Origin: a virus
Reading direction: 5' to 3' (one strand)
Length of the DNA stretch: 64,000 nt
Virus record (IMG/VR): IMGVR_UViG_3300009788_000091
Span: 1 to 64,000 of that record
In this document: piece after piece, positions 1-62,990 of the stretch
Layout of the letters: each line of letters begins with the position of its first letter
Numbering within the stretch: the stretch's first letter is position 1
The notes under the pieces: model-generated
Database searches by the model: none
Told to the model about the DNA's origin: nothing
What the model saw: only the letters and a program-made list of their open reading frames with translations
Translations under genes and position numbers: made by a program

Positions 1-933
1 ATCGTCTTCGTCATCATCATCTTCTGTTTCTTCGTCATCCTCATCATCATCTTCTTCAGATTCTTCGTCATCGTCCTCATCATCATCGTCATCTGAATCA
101 TCTTCATCATCATCGTCATCCGATTCGTCATCGTCATCGTCATCTTCAATTTCATCATCGTCATCACCATCTTCAATTTCATCATCATTGTCATCATCTT
201 TATATGATTCGCCTTCATGTTCAATGATTTCTAAAGCACGTGATTTCAATTTAGAAAATAATTTTTCTAATTTATCATCACTAACTTTAGGCTGAAGTTT
301 ATCAAGATTTGGCAGATTATCAAGTATCTCATCTTCATCAACTAACTCATTTGCAACTAAATTAGCTGGTTTCTTTGAGAACTTCGCTACTTCATATTTT
401 CGTTTCTTACCTTCGCCTTGCGCTTCTACAATCATTGGATAACCCTTATCCAAATCACAAATATCATCAGCGCTGTCACATTCTTCAATTTCAGAAAGTA
501 AAAGTTTATAAGCGACCATTGGCAATTTCATAACTCTGACGCCTTGATCTGGATTCTTCATATCAATTGCATTAACATAAACATCCGTCACCGGCATAAA
601 CAACCGCCAAACCTGTTGCAGTTTCTTCGACTTGTGAGTTTCATATTTTTCTTTTAATTTGAAACCATATTCCATAACCTTATCAATCTCGCCATCTTTA
701 ATCTTTGGAGAACCTACTTGAATAATTGGTCTTTTATTTTTCCAAATTGCATAACTTACAACCCGTTTATAAAGACCACCTTTTTTATAAGGTGGTAAAA
801 TCAAAATCTTATTTTTTCCGGCTTTGAACTTAAACATCTTATCTCGTAGTTTTCCACCTCCAGAAATTTGAGCCTTATCTTCCTGCGCCTGATTTTTCAA
901 TTCATCCATATTTACTGAATGTCTTTTACCCAT
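1..933 (-). CDS. gp32-like single-stranded DNA-binding protein (3' end outside window)
   Basis: The reading frame is open from the ATG at 933 to the window edge (311 codons), so the C-terminus is missing. A basic N-terminal region leads into a core with an ILILPPYKKGG segment and a YAIWKN segment. From about residue 243 almost every residue is Asp, Glu or Ser. A basic/aromatic core followed by an acidic tail is the plan of phage ssDNA-binding proteins such as T4 gp32, where the tail recruits replication and recombination partners. I see only two cysteines in the core, so the gp32 zinc site seems absent. The neighbouring UvsY-like and polymerase genes support the call. A GGAG lies 9 nt before the start. 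Identity is inferred from architecture and context. Confidence 0.6.
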   Translation of the reverse strand, partial: MGKRHSVNMDELKNQAQEDKAQISGGGKLRDKMFKFKAGKNKILILPPYKKGGLYKRVVSYAIWKNKRPIIQVGSPKIKDGEIDKVMEYGFKLKEKYETHKSKKLQQVWRLFMPVTDVYVNAIDMKNPDQGVRVMKLPMVAYKLLLSEIEECDSADDICDLDKGYPMIVEAQGEGKKRKYEVAKFSKKPANLVANELVDEDEILDNLPNLDKLQPKVSDDKLEKLFSKLKSRALEIIEHEGESYKDDDNDDEIEDGDDDDEIEDDDDDDESDDDDDEDDSDDDDDEDDDEESEEDDDEDDEETEDDDDEDD

Positions 934-935
934 TT

Positions 936-1448
936 TCAATTACTCCTTTTTTTCTTTTTTCGAATTAAATGATCCGCACTTGATGCTTTTGAACGAACAA
1001 CACCAGCATCAAGTTCTTTCCGCCGCATCAAACCTATGTTTGTTAACTGTTGCCCTTTTTGTGTAATACTATTTACCGCCGCCCAACACACACTATGTTT
1101 CCATTTCGTTTCCAAATACTGATCCACCGCTTCAACAACCATACTATGCGTTCCAATCATTGCTTTTATGTTTGCTTCAGACGGTTTCTTTTTACCTTTA
1201 AACTTCTTTCTGATTGACTTGTCAACCTTTGATTCAATGAGTTTAATACGATTTTCTGCCGTATCCATTTGTAACTCTGCGTCAGATTTTATCATACCGA
1301 TATTGAACACCAATGAACTATTTCTTGCCATCTCACTTGACAATTTTGACCTATTTAGCTTTGCATTATTTTCAAATCCTGAAATTAAATTAGAATATTT
1401 TTCTCTTAATTTTGTTGAATTTAAAATTTTATTTTTTTTCCTTCCCAT
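936..1448 (-). CDS. UvsY-like recombination mediator (putative)
   Basis: This 170-residue, basic, mostly helical protein has Lys/Arg-rich ends. The central segment (about residues 45-140) has the pattern of phage recombination mediators of the UvsY type: an IRKKFKGKKKPSE stretch, then a long helix with HSMVVEAVDQYLETKWKHS and a terminal QKGQQLTNIGLMRRKEL. UvsY loads the UvsX recombinase onto SSB-coated ssDNA. The gene lies 2 nt upstream of the SSB gene and overlaps the polymerase 3' end by 28 nt, so the three are translated together. No UvsX/RecA homologue is inside the window. The assignment rests on weak sequence resemblance plus neighbourhood; another small DNA-binding protein is possible. 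Confidence 0.4.
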   Translation of the reverse strand: MGRKKNKILNSTKLREKYSNLISGFENNAKLNRSKLSSEMARNSSLVFNIGMIKSDAELQMDTAENRIKLIESKVDKSIRKKFKGKKKPSEANIKAMIGTHSMVVEAVDQYLETKWKHSVCWAAVNSITQKGQQLTNIGLMRRKELDAGVVRSKASSADHLIRKKKKRSN

Positions 1449-4099
1449 CGATCTTTCACTCCAAAATCTATATCAAGTTTAACTTCATACTTTGTACCTT
1501 CACCCAAAATTCTAGGTAAACAAGCATTTGCATACTTCTCTACTGTTCTCATTTCAGATAAAGGACCATCCACATACAACCCATCATGTAAGGACAGTAT
1601 GATTTTCGATTTCATCTTCTTTCTTCGTAACATTTCATGAAATTTAATCTTTCCACCTAAATAATTTCCACCAGAAACAAATAATTCATTTGCATATCCT
1701 TGAATCGGAAAATTCATAGCTTGCCGATACACAGCTTCTAAATCCATTTCACGCATACGGCATTCCTGGGAATAAACACTTTGAAACCAATCAGCACATG
1801 TAAAACGCCTTTTACGACCTGTTTCTGGTAAAACTAAAAGACCATCAGTACGAGCTATTAATTTTTGATCTTCACGCCATAAATTTAATCTTTTATATTT
1901 ATCAAAATAAATTTGGATCATGTCTTCAACTTCTTCAGTCTCACGATTGAATTCTTCTGCAATACTATAAGCAGTTTTACCATAATTCAATCCAAACCCA
2001 ATAGTCTTTGCCATGACTCGCAATTCTTCATATTCAGCTGTCAAATGAATTTTCTTTTTAATCTGTTTTCTATTCCCTGATATTTTCCAATCATCAGGTG
2101 GTTCATAATTTCGAATCGATATAAATTTCTTCTCAGTCATATTTTCAGGCAATATTCCCAACCGAGTACCAAACATAACAATATTTCTAGAATGGATATC
2201 CACATCATTACGAATCTCTTTAATCATAACTAAATCTTTAGAAAGAAAAGCTACAACTCTCATTTCTAACTGTTTAAAATCGATGATTCCAATTACATTC
2301 TTTTTACTACTTGGAATAAATATTTGCCGCAAATTAATATCATATTTAGGATTTGGCCTGGGAATTTGATGTAGTGCTGGGTCTGAAATGGAAAGTCTAC
2401 CTGTTCTTGGCGTATGGATATTTGATGAACAATGAACAAAATTATTACTATCAGTCCAACTTAACATCCCGCCTTTGCCATCGTTGCCATCCATATAAGT
2501 TGATTTCATTTTAGACAAAGTTCGCATTTCTAAAATTAATAATGGCATCTTTTGATATTTCTTAAATTGTAAAAGTTTTTTCAATGAATCTTCATCAGTT
2601 GACCATAAACCAGTAGGTGTTTGTTTCCCACGTCTATTTCCAAAAGCGCCTTGACCTTCTAAATAATCAGCTAATTGAGTTGGGCTGGCTGGATTAAAAT
2701 CTTTATTTTTGGCAATCTTTTTTGTTTCTTTTACAATGTCTGCGATTTCGAATTGGAACTTCTTAGACATTTTAAGAAGCATTTGAACATCTAATTTCAT
2801 ACCGTGATATTCTATATCAGCCATTACATTAACTAATTTCATTTGTTGTTTATAAAAAAGATCGACCATTCCTTCTTTTTCCAACAATTTTTTTAAAATT
2901 GGTTTTAGCCTCCGAGTACCATCCGCATCTTTCGAAGCATATAAAGCAAGATCTAACGGTGGAATAAATAAATAAGATTTTTTTCTAGCTTTACTTTTAT
3001 TGACATAAATCCAGTTTCCTTTCTCGTAATTAGAATCTTCAATATCATACCATTCAAGACAGAAAGTTAAATTATGTGGCTTGTTTTCATCAATTAAAGA
3101 ATGGGCAATACAAGTATCAAAAGTAAAATTAGAAACTGGAAAACCTGCGGCTCTAGCAAAATTAACATCAAACTTTCCATTATGAGCACTTTTCTTTGCT
3201 TTAGATTTAAAAATCAATTTCATATGTGCTTTCAGTTCTTTTTCGTATTTACTTATAAATGTATTGATCTTTTTGATTTGGTCCAAATTTTTATTAATAT
3301 CTTTTCTAGATCTTCCTTGTTTCTCCATTACTTTTTTAATTTTATCAATATGTTCTTTTGCATATAGATGATGTGGAATAACATAAACCAAACCGGGCTT
3401 CTCACAAAAAACTGACATAATAATTGAATGTTGAAAAAATTTCAATCCAGTTGTCTCAAAGTCGAAAGTAAATGATTTCACATTCATTAATTTCTTTGTG
3501 ACTTTTTTCAAATGATCTAATGTTGTTACAAATTCATATTTTAATTTTTTTCGCTTAGGTATAATTCCTTTTTTTACATAATCTCTCGCACGTTTCAAAT
3601 CATGAATAACTAAATCATCAAATTCCCATTTATGTAAACAACCAGATGGACTATAAGTTGCAATAATCTTTGTTTTAAAATTACGATCAGCTATTTCAAA
3701 ATCTTCAAAAAAACCTCTATTATCCCCGATATTTTTTTCACCAATAAATGTTTCAAGAGCATTATCACCCATTGCCACAATAATTTTTGGTTTAACTCTT
3801 AAAACTTCTTTCATAATATGTTTTTGACAAGCCTTTACATGAATTGCTTTTGGCTTTTTATATTTCGGAGCGCACTTTAAAGCATGACTTAAAAACACAT
3901 TTCTTCGTTTTAATCCAGCTCGTTTCAATAAATATGAAAGTTTCTTACCAACATCCCCACTAAAAGGTTCACCTGATTCATCTTCACTATGACCTGGTGA
4001 TGCTCCAACAATCATAATATCGGCTTCATCATTGCCTACACCGGCCATACAATTCGTATAAGCATTAAAATGTAATTCACAATCAGTACACTTTTTCAT
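1421..4099 (-). CDS. Family A DNA polymerase with N-terminal UDG domain and 3'-5' exonuclease
   Basis: The protein has 892 residues. Residues 1-175 form a family 4-like uracil-DNA glycosylase domain: four cluster-type cysteines (C4, C7, C76, C91), motif VGASPGHSED (31-40) and an SPS motif near 150 in place of the usual HPS. Residues 190-400 are a proofreading exonuclease with DFE (213-215), N307/D311 and YxxxD (387-391) intact. Residues 420-892 are the polymerase: TGRLS...P..HQIP (566-580), motif A DFKQLEMR (D607), motif B R694-K698-YG (706-707), and motif C H838-D839-G840. Motif C is HDG rather than the usual HDE. This is probably the replicative polymerase. A UDG-like domain on a family A phage polymerase is known from SPO1. 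Whether the UDG part excises or only senses uracil cannot be told. Confidence 0.93.
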   Translation of the reverse strand: MKKCTDCELHFNAYTNCMAGVGNDEADIMIVGASPGHSEDESGEPFSGDVGKKLSYLLKRAGLKRRNVFLSHALKCAPKYKKPKAIHVKACQKHIMKEVLRVKPKIIVAMGDNALETFIGEKNIGDNRGFFEDFEIADRNFKTKIIATYSPSGCLHKWEFDDLVIHDLKRARDYVKKGIIPKRKKLKYEFVTTLDHLKKVTKKLMNVKSFTFDFETTGLKFFQHSIIMSVFCEKPGLVYVIPHHLYAKEHIDKIKKVMEKQGRSRKDINKNLDQIKKINTFISKYEKELKAHMKLIFKSKAKKSAHNGKFDVNFARAAGFPVSNFTFDTCIAHSLIDENKPHNLTFCLEWYDIEDSNYEKGNWIYVNKSKARKKSYLFIPPLDLALYASKDADGTRRLKPILKKLLEKEGMVDLFYKQQMKLVNVMADIEYHGMKLDVQMLLKMSKKFQFEIADIVKETKKIAKNKDFNPASPTQLADYLEGQGAFGNRRGKQTPTGLWSTDEDSLKKLLQFKKYQKMPLLILEMRTLSKMKSTYMDGNDGKGGMLSWTDSNNFVHCSSNIHTPRTGRLSISDPALHQIPRPNPKYDINLRQIFIPSSKKNVIGIIDFKQLEMRVVAFLSKDLVMIKEIRNDVDIHSRNIVMFGTRLGILPENMTEKKFISIRNYEPPDDWKISGNRKQIKKKIHLTAEYEELRVMAKTIGFGLNYGKTAYSIAEEFNRETEEVEDMIQIYFDKYKRLNLWREDQKLIARTDGLLVLPETGRKRRFTCADWFQSVYSQECRMREMDLEAVYRQAMNFPIQGYANELFVSGGNYLGGKIKFHEMLRRKKMKSKIILSLHDGLYVDGPLSEMRTVEKYANACLPRILGEGTKYEVKLDIDFGVKDRWEGKKIKF

Positions 4100-4356
4100 T
4101 TTTTGTAACTGCCTCTAGCTTTTGACATAGTGTCAAAATCAACAAATTCCCTTGATCGCTTTCTAGCAATACGTTCTCTTTTATCCAAACTTTTTTTTAT
4201 AAATTTAACAGCACGTTGCAATGCTTGTTCTTTTGTCTCTGTTTGACTCACATCGGTACTATATGAAAGATGCAAATCATATGATTCATAATCACCAATA
4301 TTTATTTTCAACCCTTCTGAATACATAACGCGATCACGTTGTTCTAGTTTTTTCAT
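4096..4356 (-). CDS. Small protein of unknown function in the replication operon
   Basis: The product has 86 residues, with an N-terminal half rich in beta-type residues (LKINIGDYESYDLHLSYS) and a basic helical C-terminal half (RAVKFIKKSLDKRERIARKRSRE). I do not recognise the family by name. The stop overlaps the polymerase start in an ATGA arrangement, and its start lies 23 nt inside the 3' end of the primase-helicase gene. It is therefore translationally coupled on both sides and probably serves replication or recombination. No cysteines, membrane segments or enzyme motifs are visible. Confidence 0.7.
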   Translation of the reverse strand: MKKLEQRDRVMYSEGLKINIGDYESYDLHLSYSTDVSQTETKEQALQRAVKFIKKSLDKRERIARKRSREFVDFDTMSKARGSYKK

Positions 4357-6160
4357 AATTCCTCCGCTGATTTTTCTTTTTCTTTTTTAATTTTTCAATT
4401 TGTAACGCTTTTGAAAAAAAGCTACCAGTTTCATGAAACATTGATCGTTGACCTTCATACGCAATTAAAGCTTTTCCGCCATCTCCCCATCGTCCAGCAA
4501 TTTTTACTTGAACTAAATCTTCAAAATGACCCTGTTTTACTTCATCATCTTCACAAATATCATTTTCATCTTCTTTCAAATCTCGATGAAGCATAATTGC
4601 AATATCCGCATCCTGCCAAATAGAACTTGAATCTTTAAAATCATCTGTATCCATAGCCCTATGCCCAATTTTTCTAGGATGAACAACTAAAACAAAAACA
4701 ATATTTAAAGTTTCAGCCAACAATTTAAACCGTCTGGTAATATTACCCACTTCAGAAGTCACATTTTCATTTCGAACTAAAAAATGTAAATTATCAAAAA
4801 CAACAAATTTTATTCCATACCGTTTAACTGCATTTTTTATATCATCACAAACATTGTCTAAATCTAATTTATCTTGAACTGGGTATCCAAAATAAACATT
4901 GTCTTTTGTCTGGTCATTTGCAAAAAATAATTGCTCCTCGGTGATTTCTTCTGGTTTAGTAAAATCAAAATTTTTATAAGCAATAACTTTTTCACCAAGC
5001 CGTTTTCCACGCATCTCACAACAATAAAGCAAAGTAGGAACATCTTCTTTTGATAAAGAAAGCATCCAGTTTAAAACAAAAGTAGTTTTCCCAATCTTCG
5101 GGGGGGAACTTACAATAACTAAGTAACCCTTTTTTGCACCGCCCATGATTTTATTAACTCTTGACCAAGGAGTTTCAAAACCGTAAATCTCATCTTCATC
5201 CGCTAAAAATAAATCGCTATGAATTTCTTTCAATGTGTCTTTCAAAGACATAATATTTCTAACTTCAAATCGTCTAGCGAGTTGTTTAAGTTTCAAAAAA
5301 TCTTTTAAACTATAATTTTCTTCATGTTTTTCATCATTCCAAAAATATTTATTTACATCTTTAATACTTTTCGGTAATTCAATATTAAAACAACGGTCTA
5401 ATCCCAATCGTTCAGCAATTTTTTTTGCTCCTGCTTGGCCATCAACATCAGAATCAAACACTAAATATATTTTTTTAAATCGTTCAAGCCGTTCATACCA
5501 TTCCTGTTTGAATGAACCAGCTCCCGCTGTAACAGAAACAACATTTTTGATTCCAGAATTATAAAGTGAAACACAATCTAATTCAGCTTCCGTGATGAAA
5601 ATCTCTTTGTGTTCTTTATCGCTTATAATTTCATCATGAAATAATGATGTTTCACCACCTTTAATTCTTCTCCATTTCCATTTTTTATCTTCAAATTTGA
5701 TAGCTCGAAATTTAATATTTACAAGCTGGCCATTTCTCCAAAATGGGATTGAAACAAATTCATAACCAGATTTTTTATTTGAACCCAATTGAAAATGATT
5801 AATAGTCTTTTTTTCAAAACCACGTTCTTTCATTAAATAAGAAAGACATTTTCTTTCTTTCTCGTAAATAAACCGATGATATTTTTCTGCTAAGGTCTGA
5901 TCAATCTTAACAGCTTTCTTTTGTTTTCTTTTTGATGTTTTTAAATTTAATTCAGTAACCGAACGCCCTTCAATCTCTTTCTTAAATGTCCTTAATTTTT
6001 TTCCTTTTCGATCACAATTAAAACAATGCCAAGACCCGGTTTCAATATGGATTCCCAGTCGTTCTGTATTATCCGGGCAAAAAAGACAATTCATCACATA
6101 ATTGTCACCTGATTTTCGGAATTTAATTTTCTTTGATTTTAAATATTCTTTAATAGTCAC
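4334..6160 (-). CDS. T7 gp4-like bifunctional primase-helicase
   Basis: The protein has 608 residues. It starts with a zinc-binding module (C25, C28, C46, C49), as in DnaG/T7 gp4 primases that use it to read template initiation sites. A TOPRIM core follows, with E191 (ITEAELD) and the D236/D238 pair (VFDSDVDG). The C-terminal half is a DnaB-type helicase with Walker A SPPKIGKT (352-359), Walker B VVFDNLHFL (D456) and a downstream LVVHPRK switch motif. It would form a ring on the lagging strand, unwinding DNA and making primers. The start is a GTG that overlaps the TGA of the upstream gene with no strong ribosome binding site, suggesting translational coupling. Length and domain order match the family. 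Confidence 0.95.
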   Translation of the reverse strand: MTIKEYLKSKKIKFRKSGDNYVMNCLFCPDNTERLGIHIETGSWHCFNCDRKGKKLRTFKKEIEGRSVTELNLKTSKRKQKKAVKIDQTLAEKYHRFIYEKERKCLSYLMKERGFEKKTINHFQLGSNKKSGYEFVSIPFWRNGQLVNIKFRAIKFEDKKWKWRRIKGGETSLFHDEIISDKEHKEIFITEAELDCVSLYNSGIKNVVSVTAGAGSFKQEWYERLERFKKIYLVFDSDVDGQAGAKKIAERLGLDRCFNIELPKSIKDVNKYFWNDEKHEENYSLKDFLKLKQLARRFEVRNIMSLKDTLKEIHSDLFLADEDEIYGFETPWSRVNKIMGGAKKGYLVIVSSPPKIGKTTFVLNWMLSLSKEDVPTLLYCCEMRGKRLGEKVIAYKNFDFTKPEEITEEQLFFANDQTKDNVYFGYPVQDKLDLDNVCDDIKNAVKRYGIKFVVFDNLHFLVRNENVTSEVGNITRRFKLLAETLNIVFVLVVHPRKIGHRAMDTDDFKDSSSIWQDADIAIMLHRDLKEDENDICEDDEVKQGHFEDLVQVKIAGRWGDGGKALIAYEGQRSMFHETGSFFSKALQIEKLKKKKKNQRRNYEKTRTT

Positions 6161-6789
6161 TTTTTTGTTATCTTTTCAAGATGAACGTTTACCCAATTTT
6201 TAATTTTCCCTCGTCTAACCATTTGTAATTTTTTAACGTAAATTGTTTGTCTTAAATTAGCAACACCATCATAAACTTTTTTCGCTGCAAATTGGTATTT
6301 TACATTATTAGATAATGCCATATCTAATTCATCTTGTGGAATAGTGACCTTAATTTCAAAAGCGTCTTCAATTGGGTCACGATCTTCTATATGATTTAAC
6401 AAACGGTCTTCCGCACCGCTACTACACAAATGAGAAACACTTGGAAACGAACCTTTACCTTTATTAGTCCAATTAAGTCCCTCAATTTGAGCATTCAAAA
6501 AAGCCTTAAAATTTTTTACATTATGTCTGTCCATTATAGCAATAGATTTTTTGAAATGGGCGATGTTTTTTGCTGTTGGTAGAATATCGATAATTGATTT
6601 ATTTTTATAAAAAGATTTTTTTAATTTATTATAAAGATTAATTAATTGAATTACTTTAACATCAATTTCATTTTTTTGTTTTCTTTTACGTTTATTTTTC
6701 TTTTTATCAATTAATTCAAGCGTTAAATTAACAATGATTTTTCCATCAATTGTTTTTGAAACAGATTGTTTTTTTAAAATTAAATTCAA
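6157..6789 (-). CDS. Basic protein of unknown function upstream of the primase-helicase
   Basis: The product has 210 residues and is strongly basic in residues 25-70, with a Lys/Arg run followed by a helical IDVKVIQLINLYNKLKKSFYKNK segment. The C-terminal third has mixed beta character. I do not recognise a family. Its stop overlaps the GTG of the primase-helicase gene, so a role at the fork (helicase loader or accessory factor) is a contextual guess only. The start appears to be TTG, four bases after a GGGGGG run that can act as ribosome binding site; the next in-frame ATG is far inside the protein. Confidence 0.65.
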   Translation of the reverse strand: MNLILKKQSVSKTIDGKIIVNLTLELIDKKKNKRKRKQKNEIDVKVIQLINLYNKLKKSFYKNKSIIDILPTAKNIAHFKKSIAIMDRHNVKNFKAFLNAQIEGLNWTNKGKGSFPSVSHLCSSGAEDRLLNHIEDRDPIEDAFEIKVTIPQDELDMALSNNVKYQFAAKKVYDGVANLRQTIYVKKLQMVRRGKIKNWVNVHLEKITKK

Positions 6790-6839
6790 AATCCCCCCAA
6801 AATTTTTTCAATTTCATTTTCATTTTCTTCCTATCGATT

Positions 6840-6875
6840 TATATTGACTTCAAAAATTAATCTGAAGCCAATATA
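6840..6875. terminator. 13-bp inverted repeat between replication genes
   Basis: Two 13-base arms, TATATTGACTTCA (6840-6852) and TGAAGCCAATATA (6863-6875), pair with one mismatch around a 10-base loop. It lies in the 115-bp gap after the acidic zinc-ribbon gene and before the next minus-strand gene. No T-run follows on either strand, so an ordinary intrinsic terminator is doubtful. It could be an attenuator, an mRNA-processing hairpin or an operator. Confidence 0.4.
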
Positions 6876-6904
6876 AATGATAAGAGAGAACAGTTTAAGG
6901 GAAC

Positions 6905-7855
6905 TTAGTTCTTCTTTTTCTTCTTCTTTTTAGATTTTTTATCTTTCGATTTTACCAATTTTTTTACAATCCAAGATGTAAGTGCTTTTGAATCACCAAT
7001 ACCAATTGGGCGGCTTGATCCTAAAATTCCTGCAATCATTAATTTCTCAGCATATTTTAATTTATTAAGCCTTTTTGGTTTCTTTCTTAAACTAGGTATC
7101 AATTTTTCTAATTCAGCACGACGTTTTTCTTTTTCTTCTTTCTTTTTAGCAGACTTACTTTTTTTCTTTTTTTGTTTTGCTTGTTTTTTAGCTTCACCTA
7201 AAGGCTCATCTTCTTCATCATCTTCAAAATCACCATCTTCGTCATCATCCGATTCTTCTTCACCATCAGATTCTTCATCATCATCTGAATCATCATCTTC
7301 TGATTCTTCGTCGTCACCTTCTTCATCCTCATCGTCATCTTCTTCATCATCGTCTTCATCAGAATCATCCTGATTTTCTTTCTCATCTTCTTCGTCATCT
7401 TCGGATTCATCATCTTCCACATTATCATCAGAATCTTCGTCGGAATCATCATCATCTGAATCATCATCATCTGAATCATCATCATCTGAATCATCATCAT
7501 CTGAATCATCATCTGATTCTTCTTCATCTGAATCTTCTTTATCATCGGATTCTTCTTCATCATCAGAATCTTCTTCAACTTCTTCTTCATCTTCTTTTAA
7601 ATTTAATCCACAATATGGGCAATTATCAAATTCATGACAAACATTCGAACCGCATCGCGGACAACCGCCCCATTCTTCCGAATCTTCACCCAAACTTTTA
7701 ATTGTCTCACTAATTTTGCCTTTTAAAACGGCAAGAGATAAACCTTGTTGTGAAATTTGTAATATAAACTCTGCAAGATTAAAATTATCACCTTTACCAA
7801 CTTTAATTTTATGAATTTTACAAAATGCTTTTAATCCTTTAAATTCATCAGTCAT
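6905..7855 (-). CDS. Zinc-ribbon protein with long Asp/Glu/Ser tract and Lys-rich tail
   Basis: The protein has 316 residues in three zones. Residues 1-85 are a globular region ending in a zinc ribbon (CPRCG...C...CPYCG). Residues 86-222 are a low-complexity acidic tract dominated by Asp, Glu and Ser. Residues 223-316 are very basic and end in a run of Lys. I do not recognise the family. Acidic tracts in phage replication proteins often imitate DNA or dock onto basic surfaces, and the Lys-rich tail could bind DNA; both statements are inference. It starts in an ATGA overlap with the stop of the UvsW-like helicase gene, so it is expressed with recombination genes. Confidence 0.75.
   Translation of the reverse strand: MTDEFKGLKAFCKIHKIKVGKGDNFNLAEFILQISQQGLSLAVLKGKISETIKSLGEDSEEWGGCPRCGSNVCHEFDNCPYCGLNLKEDEEEVEEDSDDEEESDDKEDSDEEESDDDSDDDDSDDDDSDDDDSDDDDSDEDSDDNVEDDESEDDEEDEKENQDDSDEDDDEEDDDEDEEGDDEESEDDDSDDDEESDGEEESDDDEDGDFEDDEEDEPLGEAKKQAKQKKKKSKSAKKKEEKEKRRAELEKLIPSLRKKPKRLNKLKYAEKLMIAGILGSSRPIGIGDSKALTSWIVKKLVKSKDKKSKKKKKKKN
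7443..7514 (-). repeat. 15-bp coding microsatellite in the acidic tract
   Basis: The plus-strand unit GAATCATCATCATCT is repeated four times exactly (7443-7502), followed by a 12-bp partial copy. On the coding strand each unit encodes a five-residue Asp-rich block with one Ser. Identical tandem codons favour slippage, so the acidic tract length is probably variable between relatives. Confidence 0.9.
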
Positions 7856-10200
7856 ACTATTCCCTTTCTATTTTTCAATTTTAAAATATTTGTACTTGGA
7901 AAAGCTTTAATAATATTATTTCCGGCTTCTTTCAAGCGTTCCATTTTTACATCCCAAAAATAATAAACTTTCGGTATTGCCTTTTCACCAAAATATTTTT
8001 CAAGATCCCCATGACTTCTTTCAATACGGCCTTTTTGTTGATTAAATCTTTCAATATTATTTCCACTCGGCATTGTCAAAAATAAATGATCGAGTGTCCG
8101 AATATCTAAACCTACATCAACTTTTTGAGTACCAACTATTACATCCAATTTTCGTTTTCTTGCTAAATTAAAAACTCTCTTTTCTTCTGATTCCAAATCC
8201 AAGTCAAGCATATAATTTTTAACTCGGTCTGAAAATCCCATATTACAAATCGACTCTTTGGAAGTCGAACCTATTAAAAACCCTGTCCGCAATTTTGACA
8301 AGTCGAATTTTAATCTAATTGCATGTTCTTTCCTTTCCGTTAGAATCAAACAGATTTTTCCTTTTGCTACAGAGCGACGAACCATATACAAAATTAATTT
8401 ATTACGCTCTGTGTCTTCACACATATTCGTAATCATCGAAACCCTTTGATTTGGATTATCATCATAATCTTCATCATAAAATTTTGTAGGTATTAAATAA
8501 ATTTTTGCTTTTATACGGGATTCAATATTTTTATCTTCAATTTTATGAATTATTTTTCCAAAAGAATCATAAATCAAAAATTGACAACGATCTTTTCTTT
8601 TTTCATTAGCAGAGACACCAATTCGATATTTAGCAGGAAATTCATTTATTACATTTTGAAAAGTTGAAGCCGCAAATCGTTGAACTTCATCACAACCAAT
8701 AAAACCACAACGGTCTGAAAAAAAACCAAGCGCATTTCGTTTGGCGAGATTAAATAAACTTTGTTGCATACAAATATTTAATTTTCCAAATTTTGGTTTT
8801 GCAAATACTCCGCCAATCCCACCAAGATCTGATTTTCTAAAATTTAAAAGTTTTGGATCAAGCGCAGCTTTAATCCATTGTTTTTGATGAGTAGTATTCC
8901 ATACAACCACACACGCATGTTGTTTTGCTTTCGCAATTGCTTCCAAAAGTATTATCGTTTTTCCACTATTATGAACAACCATGCTATTAGCGACAAAATT
9001 ATGATTAGGATCAGCGCAACAAATATCATAAACTTTTTTCTTTCCTATTTTACGTTTTTTAATAACTTTTGAATATTTAGGAATACCTTGATTAAAATTA
9101 AATTTCACTCCTGCCTCAGAATGAAGTTTTTTATGGTCAAATTTATGCATTAAAGCAAGATTTTGAATTTTATTATCACTTTCATCAAAATTTAAATGAT
9201 GAATATCAAAAATAGCAGGATCAAAAACTTTTAATTTTTTAGCTTCAATCTTATTATGCCTAAAAATCTCTATATATTTTTCTAACGATAAATTATTAAA
9301 ATTTGCTTCATATATCGCTCTATGAATTAAAAGACGTTTAGTAAAACCACGTCTGACTTTATTTATTTTTTGTTTACCTGCGAATCGATGATACCAAAGA
9401 TTGCAAATCATATTTGGTCTTTTACGTTTTTTCTTAAAAGATATAGATTTTTCTGGTTTTAATGTATCAACCATAATTAAATCAACACCAATTTTTAAAT
9501 GTTGTAATTCACACCAACCATTATTTGTCATAAAACCATGATCGGCTGTTGCTTGAATTTTTTTGCCATTTTTTAAAATAATTTCATAAACAATTTTTCG
9601 ACCATTACAAAAAATATTTTCAATATTATTTAATTGAATCGTATTACCATTATAGGATCTTACTTTAGTTGGAATTTTTAAATCCCATGCTTTACCACAT
9701 ATTTTATTAGTTAACTCTTTATGTTGAAGATACATACGTTCTAAAGAAACTTCAGAACCTTTACCACCACGATTTATTCTAATTTTAGTATCACCTACCA
9801 AACATGAACAAGCACCACGAATTAATCCTTGTTCTTTTTCAAGAATTTTTGCAACAGGTTCAACTTGTTCTGATCTTAATTTTATATTTGATGAAAAAGA
9901 AATTGGTGGAAAAGAAATTCGATGATCTCTTGTCAAAACAGAATGATTAAACTTTTCAAAAATCTTTTTTAATTTTTTGTAACCCCCACGGTAAATAAAA
10001 ATTTCTTCTGCTTTAAAAAAATAAGATCGAATTTTATGTGGGACACCGTGGGTAGAAAAACCTAATCTTTTAAGTTGCCAAATTTTAGGATTTCTTTTTG
10101 TAAACTTTTTTAAAATTAACTTTGCGCATTTATTATCAAATTGTTTAAATTTTTTCCAATCAAAATGTATATAAGAATCAATTGTTAAAATAATTTTCAT
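7852..10200 (-). CDS. UvsW-like SF2 DNA helicase precursor containing an intein
   Basis: The 782-residue precursor consists of exteins 1-132 and 412-782 (503 residues after splicing) around a 279-residue intein. Joining the exteins restores a Walker A loop GACSSGKT. Downstream are motif II CDEVQ (a DEVQ variant of DEAH), motif III SAN, and the C-terminal motif VI QQKGRIERSHG, as in superfamily 2 helicases related to T4 UvsW. UvsW remodels branched DNA and R-loops and shifts replication from origin to recombination mode. The helicase cannot bind ATP until the intein is removed. This is the first large gene of the minus-strand replication block after the control region. Family assignment is from motifs; a RecG-like or type-III-like role cannot be excluded. 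Confidence 0.85.
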   Translation of the reverse strand: MKIILTIDSYIHFDWKKFKQFDNKCAKLILKKFTKRNPKIWQLKRLGFSTHGVPHKIRSYFFKAEEIFIYRGGYKKLKKIFEKFNHSVLTRDHRISFPPISFSSNIKLRSEQVEPVAKILEKEQGLIRGACSCLVGDTKIRINRGGKGSEVSLERMYLQHKELTNKICGKAWDLKIPTKVRSYNGNTIQLNNIENIFCNGRKIVYEIILKNGKKIQATADHGFMTNNGWCELQHLKIGVDLIMVDTLKPEKSISFKKKRKRPNMICNLWYHRFAGKQKINKVRRGFTKRLLIHRAIYEANFNNLSLEKYIEIFRHNKIEAKKLKVFDPAIFDIHHLNFDESDNKIQNLALMHKFDHKKLHSEAGVKFNFNQGIPKYSKVIKKRKIGKKKVYDICCADPNHNFVANSMVVHNSGKTIILLEAIAKAKQHACVVVWNTTHQKQWIKAALDPKLLNFRKSDLGGIGGVFAKPKFGKLNICMQQSLFNLAKRNALGFFSDRCGFIGCDEVQRFAASTFQNVINEFPAKYRIGVSANEKRKDRCQFLIYDSFGKIIHKIEDKNIESRIKAKIYLIPTKFYDEDYDDNPNQRVSMITNMCEDTERNKLILYMVRRSVAKGKICLILTERKEHAIRLKFDLSKLRTGFLIGSTSKESICNMGFSDRVKNYMLDLDLESEEKRVFNLARKRKLDVIVGTQKVDVGLDIRTLDHLFLTMPSGNNIERFNQQKGRIERSHGDLEKYFGEKAIPKVYYFWDVKMERLKEAGNNIIKAFPSTNILKLKNRKGIV
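8968..9804 (-). mobile_element. Intein with HNH homing endonuclease in the helicase Walker A motif
   Basis: The element covers precursor residues 133-411. It begins with Cys (CLVGDTKI, block A), has a block B-like TADHGF about 86 residues in, and ends with block F KVYDICCADPNHNFVAN and block G VVHN, followed by Ser as the +1 extein residue. The centre carries an HNH nuclease signature: IHHLNFDESDNK, then IQNLALMHKFDHKKLH. All splicing residues are present, so it should be active in splicing, and the nuclease may still promote homing. The boundaries were checked codon by codon. Confidence 0.93.
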
Positions 10201-10255
10201 CGTAATCCCATCTCACAATGTGGTATACGCTTTTAACTTTTAAAAAAATTTCTTG

Positions 10256-10480
10256 TCAAGGGTTTTTTATCGAAGGTGGGCTAATTAATTCCATCAAGGT
10301 CATTTCGCCGTTTACTAAAATCCAATCTCCCGGTGGATTTAAAACTTTATTCGCAATTTTCACGATGCAATCGAATTTTTGCAATGAATCCAAATGCATA
10401 AATTTTGGTGGTAATTTTTTTTGAATTTCTTGCATGATTTCAACTTCTTGATTCAAATTTGTTTTTTCGGCTTCCGACAT
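10256..10480 (-). CDS. Small conserved-looking protein at the edge of the control region
   Basis: The product has 74 residues from the ATG at 10480 (MSEAEKTNLN). An in-frame upstream start would add 21 residues but gives an unlikely hydrophobic leader. The sequence contains KLPPKFMHLDSLQKFDCIVKI and ends PPGDWILVNGEMTLMELISPP, a plausible compact fold. I do not recognise it. It lies upstream of the UvsW-like gene and downstream of the 20-bp iterons, so it may be the first gene of the early minus-strand transcript. The opposite strand also has an open frame here, but that one has no credible protein features. Confidence 0.55.
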   Translation of the reverse strand: MSEAEKTNLNQEVEIMQEIQKKLPPKFMHLDSLQKFDCIVKIANKVLNPPGDWILVNGEMTLMELISPPSIKNP

Positions 10481-10612
10481 GAAAAAAATCTTAATTTCAA
10501 ACAAATCAAAAGTCAATAAAAAATTTTTTAATTTAAAAATCAATCACTTAACGCAAATCGGCGATTGGGCCTTCGTGGTTTTATCGTCTGAAAAAGAAAA
10601 GCGTTTTGATTT

Positions 10613-10707
10613 TTACAATGTGTTATATTATCTTACAATGTATTATATTATCTTACAATGTATTATATTATCTTACAATGTATTATATTATCTTACAATG
10701 TGTTATT
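10613..10707. repeat. 20-bp iterons (TTACAATGT family), 4.7 copies
   Basis: The unit TTACAATGTATTATATTATC is repeated in perfect register at 10613, 10633, 10653 and 10673, with a partial copy from 10693. Copy 1 and the partial copy have G instead of A at position 10. The 20-bp period is two helical turns, so a protein would meet each copy on the same face. On the minus strand each unit carries TATAAT. The array may be a replication origin, an operator or a promoter cluster. Confidence 0.95.
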
Positions 10708-10860
10708 TTTCTTTCTTTTTTCGTTTTTATTCTTTTTCTTTTTTCTTTCTTTCATTTATCTACTGAATATTAAGTATTATTGAATATTAAATAATAATAA
10801 TAACTCCATAATATATGAGTGCCTATATATTCCACCATAGGACCACAACGTGATATGTAA

Positions 10861-10960
10861 TGTATAACATTGTTATACATTGGTCCTACATTGTAATATC
10901 ATAATGTATAACAAGTGTTATACATTGGTCCCACAATGTAATATCATAATTTATAACAAT
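10861..10960. repeat. Three 44-45-bp direct repeats carrying TGTATAACA/TGTTATACA palindromes
   Basis: Copy 1 (from 10861) has perfect arms around one base: ATGTATAACA-T-TGTTATACAT (first arm base at 10860). Copy 2 (from 10905) has 11-bp arms around AG. Copy 3 (from 10950) keeps only a half site. The spacer between palindromes is conserved: TGGTCC, then an ACATTGTAATATCAT-like stretch. An 8-bp inverted repeat, TAGGACCA (10838-10845) and TGGTCCTA (10881-10888), encloses the first palindrome. The arrangement is typical of binding sites for a dimeric regulator or initiator. Confidence 0.9.
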
Positions 10961-11035: not shown

Positions 11036-11124
11036 TCCCCCGGCACTCACCTTCCATGGTGGTAAACTTTTTGACGTTTCTATGATAACAAGTGTCATAA
11101 AACCAACAAGTCACACTGAGTCAT

Positions 11125-11176
11125 CATATCAATTTGATACGATTAATGGTATTGAATTGATATGATTAATCGTATA
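11125..11176. promoter_or_regulatory. Tandem palindromic operators upstream of the plus-strand island
   Basis: The 14-mer TTGATAYGATTAAT occurs at 11134-11147 and 11157-11170, a period of 23. Each is the left part of a palindrome that would be GATACGATTAATCGTATC if perfect. Seen as inverted repeats, CATATCAATT (11125-11134) pairs with 11155-11164, and ATACGATTAAT (11137-11147) pairs with 11165-11175, an interleaved order. The site is 100-150 bp before the first plus-strand gene and just upstream of a possible promoter, as expected of a repressor-controlled region. Confidence 0.65.
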
Positions 11177-11220: not shown

Positions 11221-11273
11221 ACGTAAAGGTTGACGTAAAGGTTGACGTAAATCTAACGCAAATAGGACGCAAA
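11221..11273 (+). repeat. Five ACGYAAA repeats directly before a start codon
   Basis: ACGTAAA occurs at 11221, 11233 and 11245, and ACGCAAA at 11256 and 11267. Spacing is 12, 12, 11 and 11 bp. The last repeat contributes AGGA, 9 nt upstream of the ATG at 11278, so the array runs into the ribosome binding site. It could be a DNA site array in the promoter downstream region or a translational control element in the mRNA leader. Confidence 0.85.
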
Positions 11274-11277
11274 TAAA

Positions 11278-11583
11278 ATGATTAAACCAGCAACAGTTGC
11301 ATTTGATGTCGATGGAACTTTGATCGAATATGACGATACCCCACGCTATGATGTGATTGCTTTTTTTAAACAGTTTGAACAATGGGGATGTGAAATGATT
11401 ATTTGGTCTGGTGGTGGAGTTGACTATGCAAAACATTGGGCAGAAAAGTTAGGGCTTGAAGCAAAAATTATTGAGAAATGGAGTATCAAACCTGATATTG
11501 CAATTGATGATTTTCCTAATGGGGTGCCGTGGGAAAAACCAATAGCAAAAGCTAATATTTGTGTTTTTAATAAAGGTAAATAA
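11278..11583 (+). CDS. Compact HAD-superfamily hydrolase
   Basis: This 101-residue protein has all four HAD motifs: motif I FDVDGT with the nucleophile D10 and D12, motif II Ser44 in IIWSGGG, motif III Lys71, and motif IV D77-D78 in IAIDDFP. There is no cap domain, so it is a minimal phosphatase, possibly acting on a large substrate such as a nucleic acid end. Phage HAD proteins of this size are common and mostly uncharacterised; some HAD domains are 3'-phosphatases of polynucleotide kinases. It is the first gene of the plus-strand island, preceded by operators and the ACGYAAA array. The substrate is unknown. Confidence 0.85.
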   Translation: MIKPATVAFDVDGTLIEYDDTPRYDVIAFFKQFEQWGCEMIIWSGGGVDYAKHWAEKLGLEAKIIEKWSIKPDIAIDDFPNGVPWEKPIAKANICVFNKGK

Positions 11584-12616: not shown

Positions 12617-13190
12617 AATTGATAACATTTTGACTAATTACTGGCAAAAAATGGAAATATTGACAAAAATTAGCTTTACCGCCGATGAGGTAGGCCCGCT
12701 TAAGAGACAGCGGATGAGGTATGTGTATATTCACGAATAAAAAAACAGAATTGAACAATATATAGGTATAATTTTTTAACTACTCTATTTGATTGAGTTA
12801 ATTCGTATTTTAATGTTTAGCCATGTATATACATCTTCAAAATTGACCCATGGAGTATACTCGTAATTTTTCTAAATAATTGCTTACAAGGCAATTACTA
12901 CAAAATGGAATGAACTGATTCTTGTTTTAAATGGACTGAGCCCTATTTAAACCACTATTTTAGAGACTTTTAACCCGTAACTCATGGGGAAGGATGGGTC
13001 ATTAAAGACACACTCTCAAGACGTTCTCAGAGGCGATAGATAGAACTACTGATTTCGGTAGATAGAACTACTGATTTCGGTAGATAGAACTACCGACGAC
13101 ATGGCGACGTGTGCCATACAGCATATGCTGTAATAATACCCAATAAAATCAGACTATTAAATGACCCATCTTGTTATACATTGTCAATCA
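12617..13190. other. Gene-free structured region inside the plus-strand island
   Basis: No credible reading frame is present on either strand. The region holds several ordered elements: two adjacent small stems around 12681-12715, with GATGAGGTA appearing twice; a TAATTGC/GCAATTA hairpin (12877-12897); an 11-bp inverted repeat, GATGGGTCATT (12993-13003) and AATGACCCATC (13160-13170), that brackets a triple 22-bp repeat; and a perfect 16-bp palindrome TACAGCATATGCTGTA (13117-13132). It could encode a structured RNA or be an origin or packaging-related site. A TGTTATACA box follows at 13172-13180. Confidence 0.55.
13037..13100. repeat. 22-bp tandem repeats, three copies
   Basis: TAGATAGAACTACTGATTTCGG is present at 13037-13058 and 13059-13080, then a diverged copy at 13081-13100. 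Each copy contains a GTAG-ATAGAA-CTAC mini-hairpin; in the last the stem extends to CGGTAG/CTACCG. There is no spacer variation, so this is not a CRISPR array. Confidence 0.9.
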
Positions 13191-13195
13191 AATGA

Positions 13196-13212
13196 GTATA
13201 ACCATGTTATAC
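13196..13212. promoter_or_regulatory. GTATAAC/GTTATAC palindrome upstream of the RHH gene promoter
   Basis: GTATAAC (13196-13202) and GTTATAC (13206-13212) flank a 3-base centre and lie 9 bp upstream of a -35 box. The sequence belongs to the same family as the palindromes in the 10.9-kb control region, so the same protein may bind here. Confidence 0.55.
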
Positions 13213-13220
13213 GTTTTTAC

Positions 13221-13249
13221 TTGACAAACCGCGTTATTTATATTACAAT
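13221..13249 (+). promoter_or_regulatory. Strong sigma70-type promoter overlapping a TTACAATGTAA palindrome
   Basis: A consensus -35 TTGACA (13221-13226) is followed, after exactly 17 bp, by TACAAT (13244-13249) as -10. The -10 lies inside the perfect palindrome TTACAATGTAA (13243-13253). This is the core of the 20-bp iterons at 10.6 kb. Transcription would start near 13256, giving a leader of about 30 nt before the ribbon-helix-helix gene. Confidence 0.8.
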
Positions 13250-13287
13250 GTAAGATAATAAAGATTGAATTAAAGAGGGAGATGAAA

Positions 13288-13521
13288 ATGAAAAAGAAAT
13301 TAATAAAAAGATCTAGATCCTCATATAAAAGAAAAAATAAAAAAACTAAATCAGGTTGTAATAAACTTCATGCTTTTCGAGCTGATCCTGAATTAACTAG
13401 TCTGTTAGATAGTATTCCAAATAAAAGTGAATTTATTGTTCAGTCTTTAAGGGAACAATGTAGCAAAAAACAATTAATATTATGTCCACGATGTAAGGGT
13501 AGAGGAAGGATATTTACATGA
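13288..13521 (+). CDS. Ribbon-helix-helix-like regulator with CxxC tail
   Basis: This 77-residue basic protein has a Lys/Arg-rich N-terminus, then FRADPELTSLLDSIPNKSEF, which matches the strand-helix-helix pattern of small RHH DNA-binding proteins. A CPRCKGRGRIF tail resembles half of a DnaJ zinc motif. RHH dimers usually repress by binding short palindromes. Two ATGs are in frame (13282 and 13288); AGGGAG ends directly before the first and is 6 nt from the second, so 13288 is preferred. The gene follows a strong promoter whose -10 overlaps TTACAATGTAA, suggesting autoregulation. Its stop overlaps the next gene start in ATGA. Confidence 0.65.
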   Translation: MKKKLIKRSRSSYKRKNKKTKSGCNKLHAFRADPELTSLLDSIPNKSEFIVQSLREQCSKKQLILCPRCKGRGRIFT

Positions 13522-22897: not shown

Positions 22898-22916
22898 TGT
22901 AAAACAATGTTATACT
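22898..22916. promoter_or_regulatory. Double 9-mer box upstream of the 22501-22875 gene
   Basis: TGTAAAACA (22898-22906) and TGTTATACT (22908-22916) are spaced 10 bp apart. It is one of the dispersed TGTTATACA-family boxes found at late gene boundaries; here the orientation is opposite to that at 45157-45175. Confidence 0.55.
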
Positions 22917-28594: not shown

Positions 28595-28613
28595 AGTATA
28601 ACTTTGTCTAACA
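28595..28613. promoter_or_regulatory. Double 9-mer box upstream of the fibre genes
   Basis: AGTATAACT (28595-28603) and TGTCTAACA (28605-28613) with 10-bp period form a degenerate member of the dispersed box family. It lies in a 64-bp gap in an otherwise compact gene block. Confidence 0.45.
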
Positions 28614-41967: not shown

Positions 41968-41986
41968 TGTTTTACAATGTTATACA
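41968..41986. promoter_or_regulatory. Double 9-mer box before the chaperone/tape-measure genes
   Basis: TGTTTTACA (41968-41976) and TGTTATACA (41978-41986) are 10 bp apart in the 115-bp gap between tube and chaperone genes. It is the only box of the series lying more than 60 bp from the start codon. Confidence 0.6.
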
Positions 41987-45156: not shown

Positions 45157-45175
45157 AGTATAACAGTGTTTTACA
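45157..45175. promoter_or_regulatory. Double 9-mer box upstream of the sheath gene
   Basis: On the minus strand, TGTAAAACA and TGTTATACT are 10 bp apart, 28 bp before the ATG. TGTTATACT also resembles an extended -10 (TG-N-TATACT), so promoter function is possible here. Confidence 0.6.
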
Positions 45176-54718: not shown

Positions 54719-54737
54719 TGTTATACAGTGTTATACA
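54719..54737. promoter_or_regulatory. Double 9-mer box upstream of the major capsid gene
   Basis: Two exact TGTTATACA copies (54719-54727 and 54729-54737) are separated by a G. The box fills most of the 53-bp gap between scaffold and capsid genes, 21 bp before the ATG. Confidence 0.7.
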
Positions 54738-57822: not shown

Positions 57823-57841
57823 TGTTATACATTGTTATACA
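57823..57841. promoter_or_regulatory. Double 9-mer box upstream of the protease gene
   Basis: Two exact TGTTATACA copies are 10 bp apart, only 10 bp from the ATG at 57813 and directly next to the AGGAAA ribosome binding site. The box therefore lies in the mRNA leader or at its start. Confidence 0.7.
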
Positions 57842-62971: not shown

Positions 62972-62990
62972 TGTTATACAGTGTTATACA
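62972..62990. promoter_or_regulatory. Double 9-mer box abutting the terminase small subunit start
   Basis: Two exact TGTTATACA copies 10 bp apart (62972-62980, 62982-62990) end 3 nt before the ATG at 62968, occupying the place of a ribosome binding site. Confidence 0.7.

Follow-up and report, generated by a model that had tools for sequence, protein, structure and literature searches.

Phage genome and surroundings of the array

The window, the whole stretch of 64,000 nucleotides that was analyzed, comprises bases 1-64000 of a virus record of 106,178 bp. Because the two ends of the record share 123 exact bases (window 1-123; 106056-106178), located within an acidic-repeat gene, the genome is most likely circular and complete, with a length of about 106,055 bp. 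It contains the gene set of a contractile-tail phage (sheath, tape measure, baseplate, portal and terminase), with nearly all genes directed leftward and rightward genes found only at about 11.3-17.2 kb. The phage also encodes a PagL-like lipid A deacylase, a Fic protein and a holin, and the presence of PagL suggests a Gram-negative host. A tyrosine recombinase of 188 amino acids with no obvious N-terminal domain is encoded at 64796-65362, and the promoter of its operon contains a class II site, as defined below.

A divergent control region upstream of the leftward-reading replication operon contains an array of 20-bp iterons (Table 1). This is the position described in the initial annotation, which placed the array between the replication operon and the remaining control region. 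The replication genes include those for PolA with its uracil-glycosylase domain (1421-4099), a primase/helicase (4334-6160) and a helicase (7852-10200), the last of which shows an intein-splicing domain and a match to an HNH endonuclease. Promoter-scan matches of the type assigned to this operon in Table 1 were observed in the region at a number not above chance. An exact match to the array 20-mer was not found in IMG/VR, and no phage relatives were identified by primase alone; a two-sequence primase alignment brought up just relatives of 23-33% identity, with no comparable array.

Further repeats are present rightward of the array. Adjacent AT-rich inverted repeats, ATCATATCAATTTGATACGATTAAT and TGATATGATTAATCGTATA, at 11118-11171 lie in the rightward promoter region and are likely the operator of a different regulator. 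Direct repeats (ACGTAAAGGTTG and ACGCAAAT variants) at 11221-11274 are located just ahead of the gene at 11278, and three direct 22-bp repeats of CGGTAGATAGAACTACTGATTT occupy non-coding DNA at 13034-13099.

Table 1. Features of the window with their coordinates, strand and basis of assignment
Feature	Position	Strand	Basis
Replication operon: PolA with UDG domain, primase-helicase, intein-bearing helicase, small ORF 10256-10543	1421..10543	-	
Weak site ATCTCACAATGTGGTAT, 9 nt before helicase start codon	10210..10226	.	
Putative replication-operon promoter TTGACT-17-TAAGAT, about 100 bp leftward (downstream) of array	10488..10516	-	promoter scan
Iteron array: five class II-like sites in 20-bp steps, ATCTTACAATGT(A/G)TTAT	10610..10706	.	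TRF, motif list
Pyrimidine-rich, AT-rich tract immediately right of array	10707..10752	+	sequence; TRF period 17
45-bp repeats: class I GTATAACATTGTTATAC at 10862-10878 (18-bp version at 10906-10923) alternating with class II-like sites at 10883-10899 and 10928-10944	10862..10959	.	
Operator-like sites upstream of RHH gene: GTTATACATTGTCAATC (13173-13189), GTATAACCATGTTATAC (13196-13212)	13173..13212	.	
RHH-gene promoter: TTGACA 13221-13226, 17 nt, TACAAT 13244-13249	13221..13256	+	sequence
Class II operator ATATTACAATGTAAGAT overlapping RHH-gene promoter	13240..13256	.	motif list
P0001, 79-aa RHH and CxxC-knuckle protein, proposed array binder	13282..13521	+	hhalign, homologues
Late-gene site GTATAACATTGTTTTAC	22899..22915	-	
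Weak late-gene site GTTAGACAAAGTTATAC	28596..28612	-	
Late-gene site GTATAACATTGTAAAAC	41969..41985	-	
Late-gene site GTAAAACACTGTTATAC, before tail sheath gene	45158..45174	-	
Late-gene site GTATAACACTGTATAAC, direct heptads, before major capsid-like gene	54720..54736	-	
Late-gene site GTATAACAATGTATAAC, before head-protease-like gene	57824..57840	-	
Late-gene site GTATAACACTGTATAAC, before gene upstream of terminase large subunit	62973..62989	-	

Structure of the array

Tandem Repeats Finder (TRF) applied to the 64-kb window detected the array at 10613-10706 with a period of 20, 4.7 copies, a 97% match and a score of 174. The nearly five copies initially reported are thus real, with the correction that three units, and not all, are identical: the first has one base change, a G at 10622, which is also seen in the last, incomplete unit. 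Judged from this copy identity, a recent expansion of the array is plausible. At no more than three mismatches, the 20-mer was found four times, versus 0.01 expected by chance in 64 kb of AT-rich DNA, and at no more than two mismatches it has no further occurrence anywhere in the 106-kb phage genome. Promoter-like matches on the plus strand within the array were not more numerous than expected by chance.

The core of the unit is the 17-mer ATCTTACAATGTATTAT. The helical phasing noted initially turned out to be finer than proposed, since each 20-bp unit contains two heptads 10 bp apart. The array consequently has ten heptad registers in exact 10-bp steps (10610, 10620 ... 10700), and in every register the heptad departs at one or two positions from GTAwTAC, the bacterial heptad described below; in the first class II-like site, the left heptad is TTTTTAC. 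In the reversed genome, comparable in-phase runs did not exceed three heptads, versus ten in the array. This control was made with the bacterial heptads; a reversed-genome control with four heptads was discarded, as the reversed array is also periodic. Taken alone, the agreement of one unit with the bacterial heptads is modest, shuffled versions of the unit reaching the same fit with p 0.007.

A genome-wide family of sites

When the k-mers of the complete phage genome were ranked without bias by their occurrence in intergenic as against coding DNA, GTATAAC(A), ACACTGT and ACAATGT were found among the highest-ranking words, alongside CTTGACA, with GTATAACA and ACAATGT at or near the top. The palindromic core ACANTGT was found to be intergenic in 32 of its 54 copies, although intergenic DNA constitutes 13% of the genome. 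When the array was left out, 27 intergenic and 22 coding copies remained (13% versus 87% of the genome), an 8-fold enrichment (Fisher p 4e-12). Since gene calling followed a simple longest-ORF rule, the intergenic boundaries behind these counts are approximate.

The sites fall into two classes, all being heptad pairs spaced 10 bp apart with the core ACANTGT in common. Class I is the palindrome GTATAACANTGTTATAC, which is found in control regions and is perfect at 10862, 88592, 90818, 90905, 94149 and 94186. Imperfect or direct-repeat forms of it precede seven leftward late genes at distances of 4-57 nt, where they overlap the expected start region, mostly without a well-placed -35 element. Class II comprises ATATTACANTGTAATAT and close variants, and is located within TTGACA-type promoters, namely those of the ribbon-helix-helix (RHH) gene, the dUTPase and the integrase operon. 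Class II sites begin 2-4 nt after TTGACT/TTGACA at 64018, 64086, 65873 and 87723, and the class II site of the RHH promoter begins 13 nt after TTGACA and lies over the -10 element. The commonest strong heptad of the phage is GTATAAC, not GTATTAC.

The array 17-mer is a class II form, identical at 15 of 17 positions to the sites at 87723 and 13240, and is one version of a site present at about 30 intergenic positions of the phage. The core of the unit had been said to recur in the 44-bp repeats and in the RHH promoter. This core, TTACAATGT, was indeed found at 13243 (+) in the RHH promoter and, in minus-strand orientation, in one of the two 44/45-bp repeats (10888), but the other repeat has its center base flipped and different flanks. 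The 45-bp repeats contain roughly one heptad per 10-13 bp, and their heptads are stronger than those of the array. As read from the sequence, the array is the densest member of a genome-wide family of putative operators.

Two duplicated segments of about 190 bp, at 90.79-90.98 kb and 94.12-94.31 kb, contain two or three class I palindromes each and are probably further control regions, the ORF called over the first being doubtful. A search of IMG/VR with GTATAACANTGTTATAC returned 32 loci, nearly all with single, chance-like sites. The exception is an apparently unrelated phage (IMGVR_UViG_3300025168_000807; locus L019), in which six GYATAAC-AAT-GTTATRC-like sites are present, several of them just before genes. 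This phage has an RHH-like ORF of its own (6187-6513), and an independent use of the same operator logic is possible.

P0001, the candidate binder

The sequence of P0001 shows a ribbon-helix-helix pattern followed by CPRCKGRG at its end. Alignment of P0001 with a bacterial protein family by hhalign gave 97.8% (E 1.2e-12, residues 29-76, 43% identity), and identities to the bacterial homologues in the alignment, over the RHH core and the first CxxC knuckle, ranged from 31 to 39%. The second zinc-binding half of the bacterial family, with its second C..C and His, is missing from P0001, and therefore P0001 is regarded as a truncated, divergent relative and not as a full member of the family. Nor is there any linkage to znuABC in the phage, the neighbors of P0001 being phage genes.

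The RHH_1 profile (PF01402) had no match in the phage, and names for P0001 from Pfam and PHROGs were rejected as just spurious low matches. The aCcr1 RHH family (NCBIfam NF053762) did not match P0001 itself and matched its bacterial homologues weakly (E 2e-6 to 6e-5), with scores that fall well short of the curated cut-off. The AlphaFold model of P0001 has helices at residues 36-43 and 48-61 after an extended stretch, at low confidence (mean pLDDT 59.5), and Foldseek returned nothing significant for this model or for the second one searched, the best match of P0001 being chain E of a ParDE complex (E 7.3). The assignment of P0001 as an RHH protein therefore rests on family evidence, that is, on the hhalign result and the weak aCcr1 match of the bacterial family, and is putative. 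No convincing viral homologues of P0001 or of its bacterial family were found. Two other small ORFs of the phage (71543-71692 and 73175-73402) are RHH-like by eye.

The promoter of P0001 itself contains 10-bp-spaced heptad pairs, as in the bacterial family. The site at 13196-13212 has one mismatch to class I and two to the GTAwTAC pair, and the site at 13240-13256 has three mismatches to the latter. The residues of P0001 that we take to contact DNA, by analogy with Arc, differ from the bacterial ones, consistent with a preference shifted to GTATAAC.

Bacterial homologues and their putative operators

The first bacterial homologues of P0001 came from 13 genome contigs, and two groups of genomes subsequently yielded homologues in 29 of 193 and 17 of 247 members. 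At the loci whose neighbors were scanned, the homologue gene is followed by znuABC-type zinc-uptake genes. Small proteins combining RHH and zinc-knuckle domains head znuABC operons in Desulfobacterota, Spirochaetes and Lentisphaerae (L040-L052, L069-L118). This type of protein is apparently an undescribed zinc-uptake regulator, and a limited look at the literature revealed no report on an RHH and zinc-knuckle regulator heading znuABC. Some delta-proteobacterial znuABC operons have been described as lacking both ZUR and a ZUR site, such that another mechanism may serve (PMC545781). An RHH regulator at the head of znuABC fits this remark, which was made for species outside those examined here.

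Upstream of the bacterial homologues lies a paired element whose heptads read GTATTAC or GTAATAC, are arranged as direct or inverted copies and are separated by exactly three bases. At no more than two mismatches, GTAwTAC-N3-GTAwTAC was present in 45 of 47 homologue upstream regions, or in 39 of the 41 that are distinct once six duplicates are removed, some of the remaining loci being from close species. Shuffled upstream regions never came closer than three mismatches to the heptad pair, and the signal was confined to the gap of 3, nothing comparable being observed at other gaps. The upstream region of one homologue (L052) contains GTATTACAATGTAATAT, which is the phage class II consensus. Promoter geometry is also shared: TTGACA followed by 3 nt and the site is found at bacterial loci L048-L050 and in two phage promoters, and TTGACA followed by 13 nt and the site at bacterial locus L040 and in the phage RHH promoter.

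When the motif derived from bacteria was scanned on the phage with a gap of 3, 20 sites were detected at no more than two mismatches, 16 of them intergenic. Gaps of 0-2 and 4-12 gave 1-5 sites each, 0-2 of which were intergenic, and a Markov model of intergenic DNA gave a mean of 0.18 sites. As far as the array is concerned, the link between phage and bacteria runs more strongly through the class II sites of the phage than through the heptad fit of the unit itself.

Proposed mechanism and alternative explanations

On balance, the array is fairly probably a multi-copy operator for an RHH regulator of the phage, most likely P0001, which is the best candidate because its bacterial relatives have matching operators in their own promoters. 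The initial suggestion that one protein links the array, the repeats and the RHH promoter is accordingly plausible, and can be extended by naming the RHH protein itself as that protein. The array would probably be part of a genome-wide switch and not an isolated replication origin.

In the proposed mechanism, one RHH dimer would contact one heptad and dimers on neighboring heptads would touch, so that 17-bp pairs could occlude single promoters and a heptad pair in a promoter spacer would block RNA polymerase. The array would accommodate as many as about ten dimers, lined up next to one another on a single face of the DNA. Because its single heptads match more weakly than those of class I, filling of the array is expected to be cooperative and to come late, once the regulator has become plentiful, and the 45-bp repeats, with stronger heptads, would fill before the array. 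The outcome would most likely be a switch-like silencing or remodelling upstream of the replication operon, as suggested by position only. The same protein would repress its own promoter and those of the dUTPase and the integrase, and would act at late-gene start sites, where the class I sites may mediate either repression or activation.

A replication origin, with the iterons as binding sites of an initiator (either the RHH protein or one that escaped recognition), unwinding of the flanking AT/pyrimidine-rich tract and loading of the primase-helicase encoded alongside, was initially considered equally possible; it now appears unlikely. Tandem 20-bp iterons do adjoin an AT-rich tract and the replication operon, and the array is without a convincing -35/-10 pair of its own. 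However, a Rep_3 initiator (PF01051) had no match in the whole record (the control matched in 6 of 14 genomes), and for this reason an origin is less supported than an operator array. GC skew, proposed initially as a check, changes near the array and at 17 kb simply with gene strand and was rejected as evidence for an origin. Moreover, the same sites occur at many promoters, including those of late structural genes, where an initiator would not need them.

A different phage regulator, RHH-like or encoded by an HTH ORF, could bind both the array and the dispersed sites, P0001 being just one of the genes regulated. Small DNA-binding candidates at 71543-71692, 73175-73402 and 80530-80829 could fill this role, and the difference between class I and class II outside the ACANTGT core could mean two proteins; but the operator with the same heptad spacing in the bacterial homologues' own promoters, including GTATTACAATGTAATAT in L052, makes this quite improbable. 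Least probable by far is a centromere-like partition site, where RHH dimers on ten phased heptads would assemble into a complex that segregates a plasmid-like prophage, in the manner of omega/ParB of pSM19035 or ParR of pSK41: the phased array does lie near the RHH gene, and the centromere sites of the pSM19035 RHH protein overlap promoters too (PMC5016525, PMC9499535), but a ParA-type ATPase (AAA_31) was not detected in the record, with 14 of 14 controls matched, and a lysogen could integrate instead, the phage having a small tyrosine recombinase.

Comparison with known systems

The operator array proposed here belongs to known kinds, namely RHH heptad arrays and dispersed phage operators, and is not a new category. 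The RHH protein omega of pSM19035 (ParB-pSM) binds arrays of 7-bp repeats, tolerating direct or inverted orientation (PMC9499535), with an affinity that depends on repeat number, and its parS arrays overlap several promoters (PMC5016525). The phage system resembles it in having heptad arrays in direct or inverted order, overlap with promoters and an RHH protein, here a candidate. However, the heptads of omega are contiguous, whereas those of the phage are 10 bp apart, and omega partners a ParA ATPase, none of which was found in the phage record; the likeness of omega to P0001 is one of description.

NikR is an RHH protein. Its operators in delta-proteobacteria consist of half-sites of the GTGTTAC/GTAACAC type separated by N13-14, or about 20 bp (PMC545781). 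Heptad half-sites and metal-uptake genes are common to both systems, but the half-sites described here are separated by N3 (10 bp), and no nickel-binding domain was seen.

In cluster A mycobacteriophages, one repressor has more than twenty sites genome-wide, in promoters and between genes (PMC9283540). These stoperators are similar in being many copies of one site in promoters and intergenic DNA across the genome. Unlike the 13-bp asymmetric stoperator, bound by an HTH monomer (PMC9283540), the site of the present phage is a heptad dyad or direct pair tied to an RHH family, and a ten-heptad array is present in addition.

The repeat unit of pSK41 parC is 20 bp. In ParR-parC of this plasmid, continuous tandem repeats upstream of the operon are bound by an RHH protein (PMC5016525). 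Continuous tandem repeats upstream of an operon are also seen in the phage, but its site family is genome-wide, and a ParM partner was not identified here, a result that carries no weight as the control of the ParM (StbA) search matched in no genome.

Biological significance

A broader scenario, in our view decidedly doubtful, is that a repressor of bacterial zinc uptake was acquired by the phage, was deprived of one half of its metal site and was put to new use as a global developmental switch. The operators would still be znuABC-like, such that phage development and host zinc control would be coupled through one DNA code, and the array would be a high-order assembly site timing the change-over.

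What does the site family mean for this phage? An otherwise unannotated phage gains a readable regulatory code, in which the early, replication and late control regions have one family of sites, and a candidate binder, P0001, can be named with the support of bacterial promoter footprints. If true, this would be a clear case of bacterial promoter footprints identifying a phage regulon.
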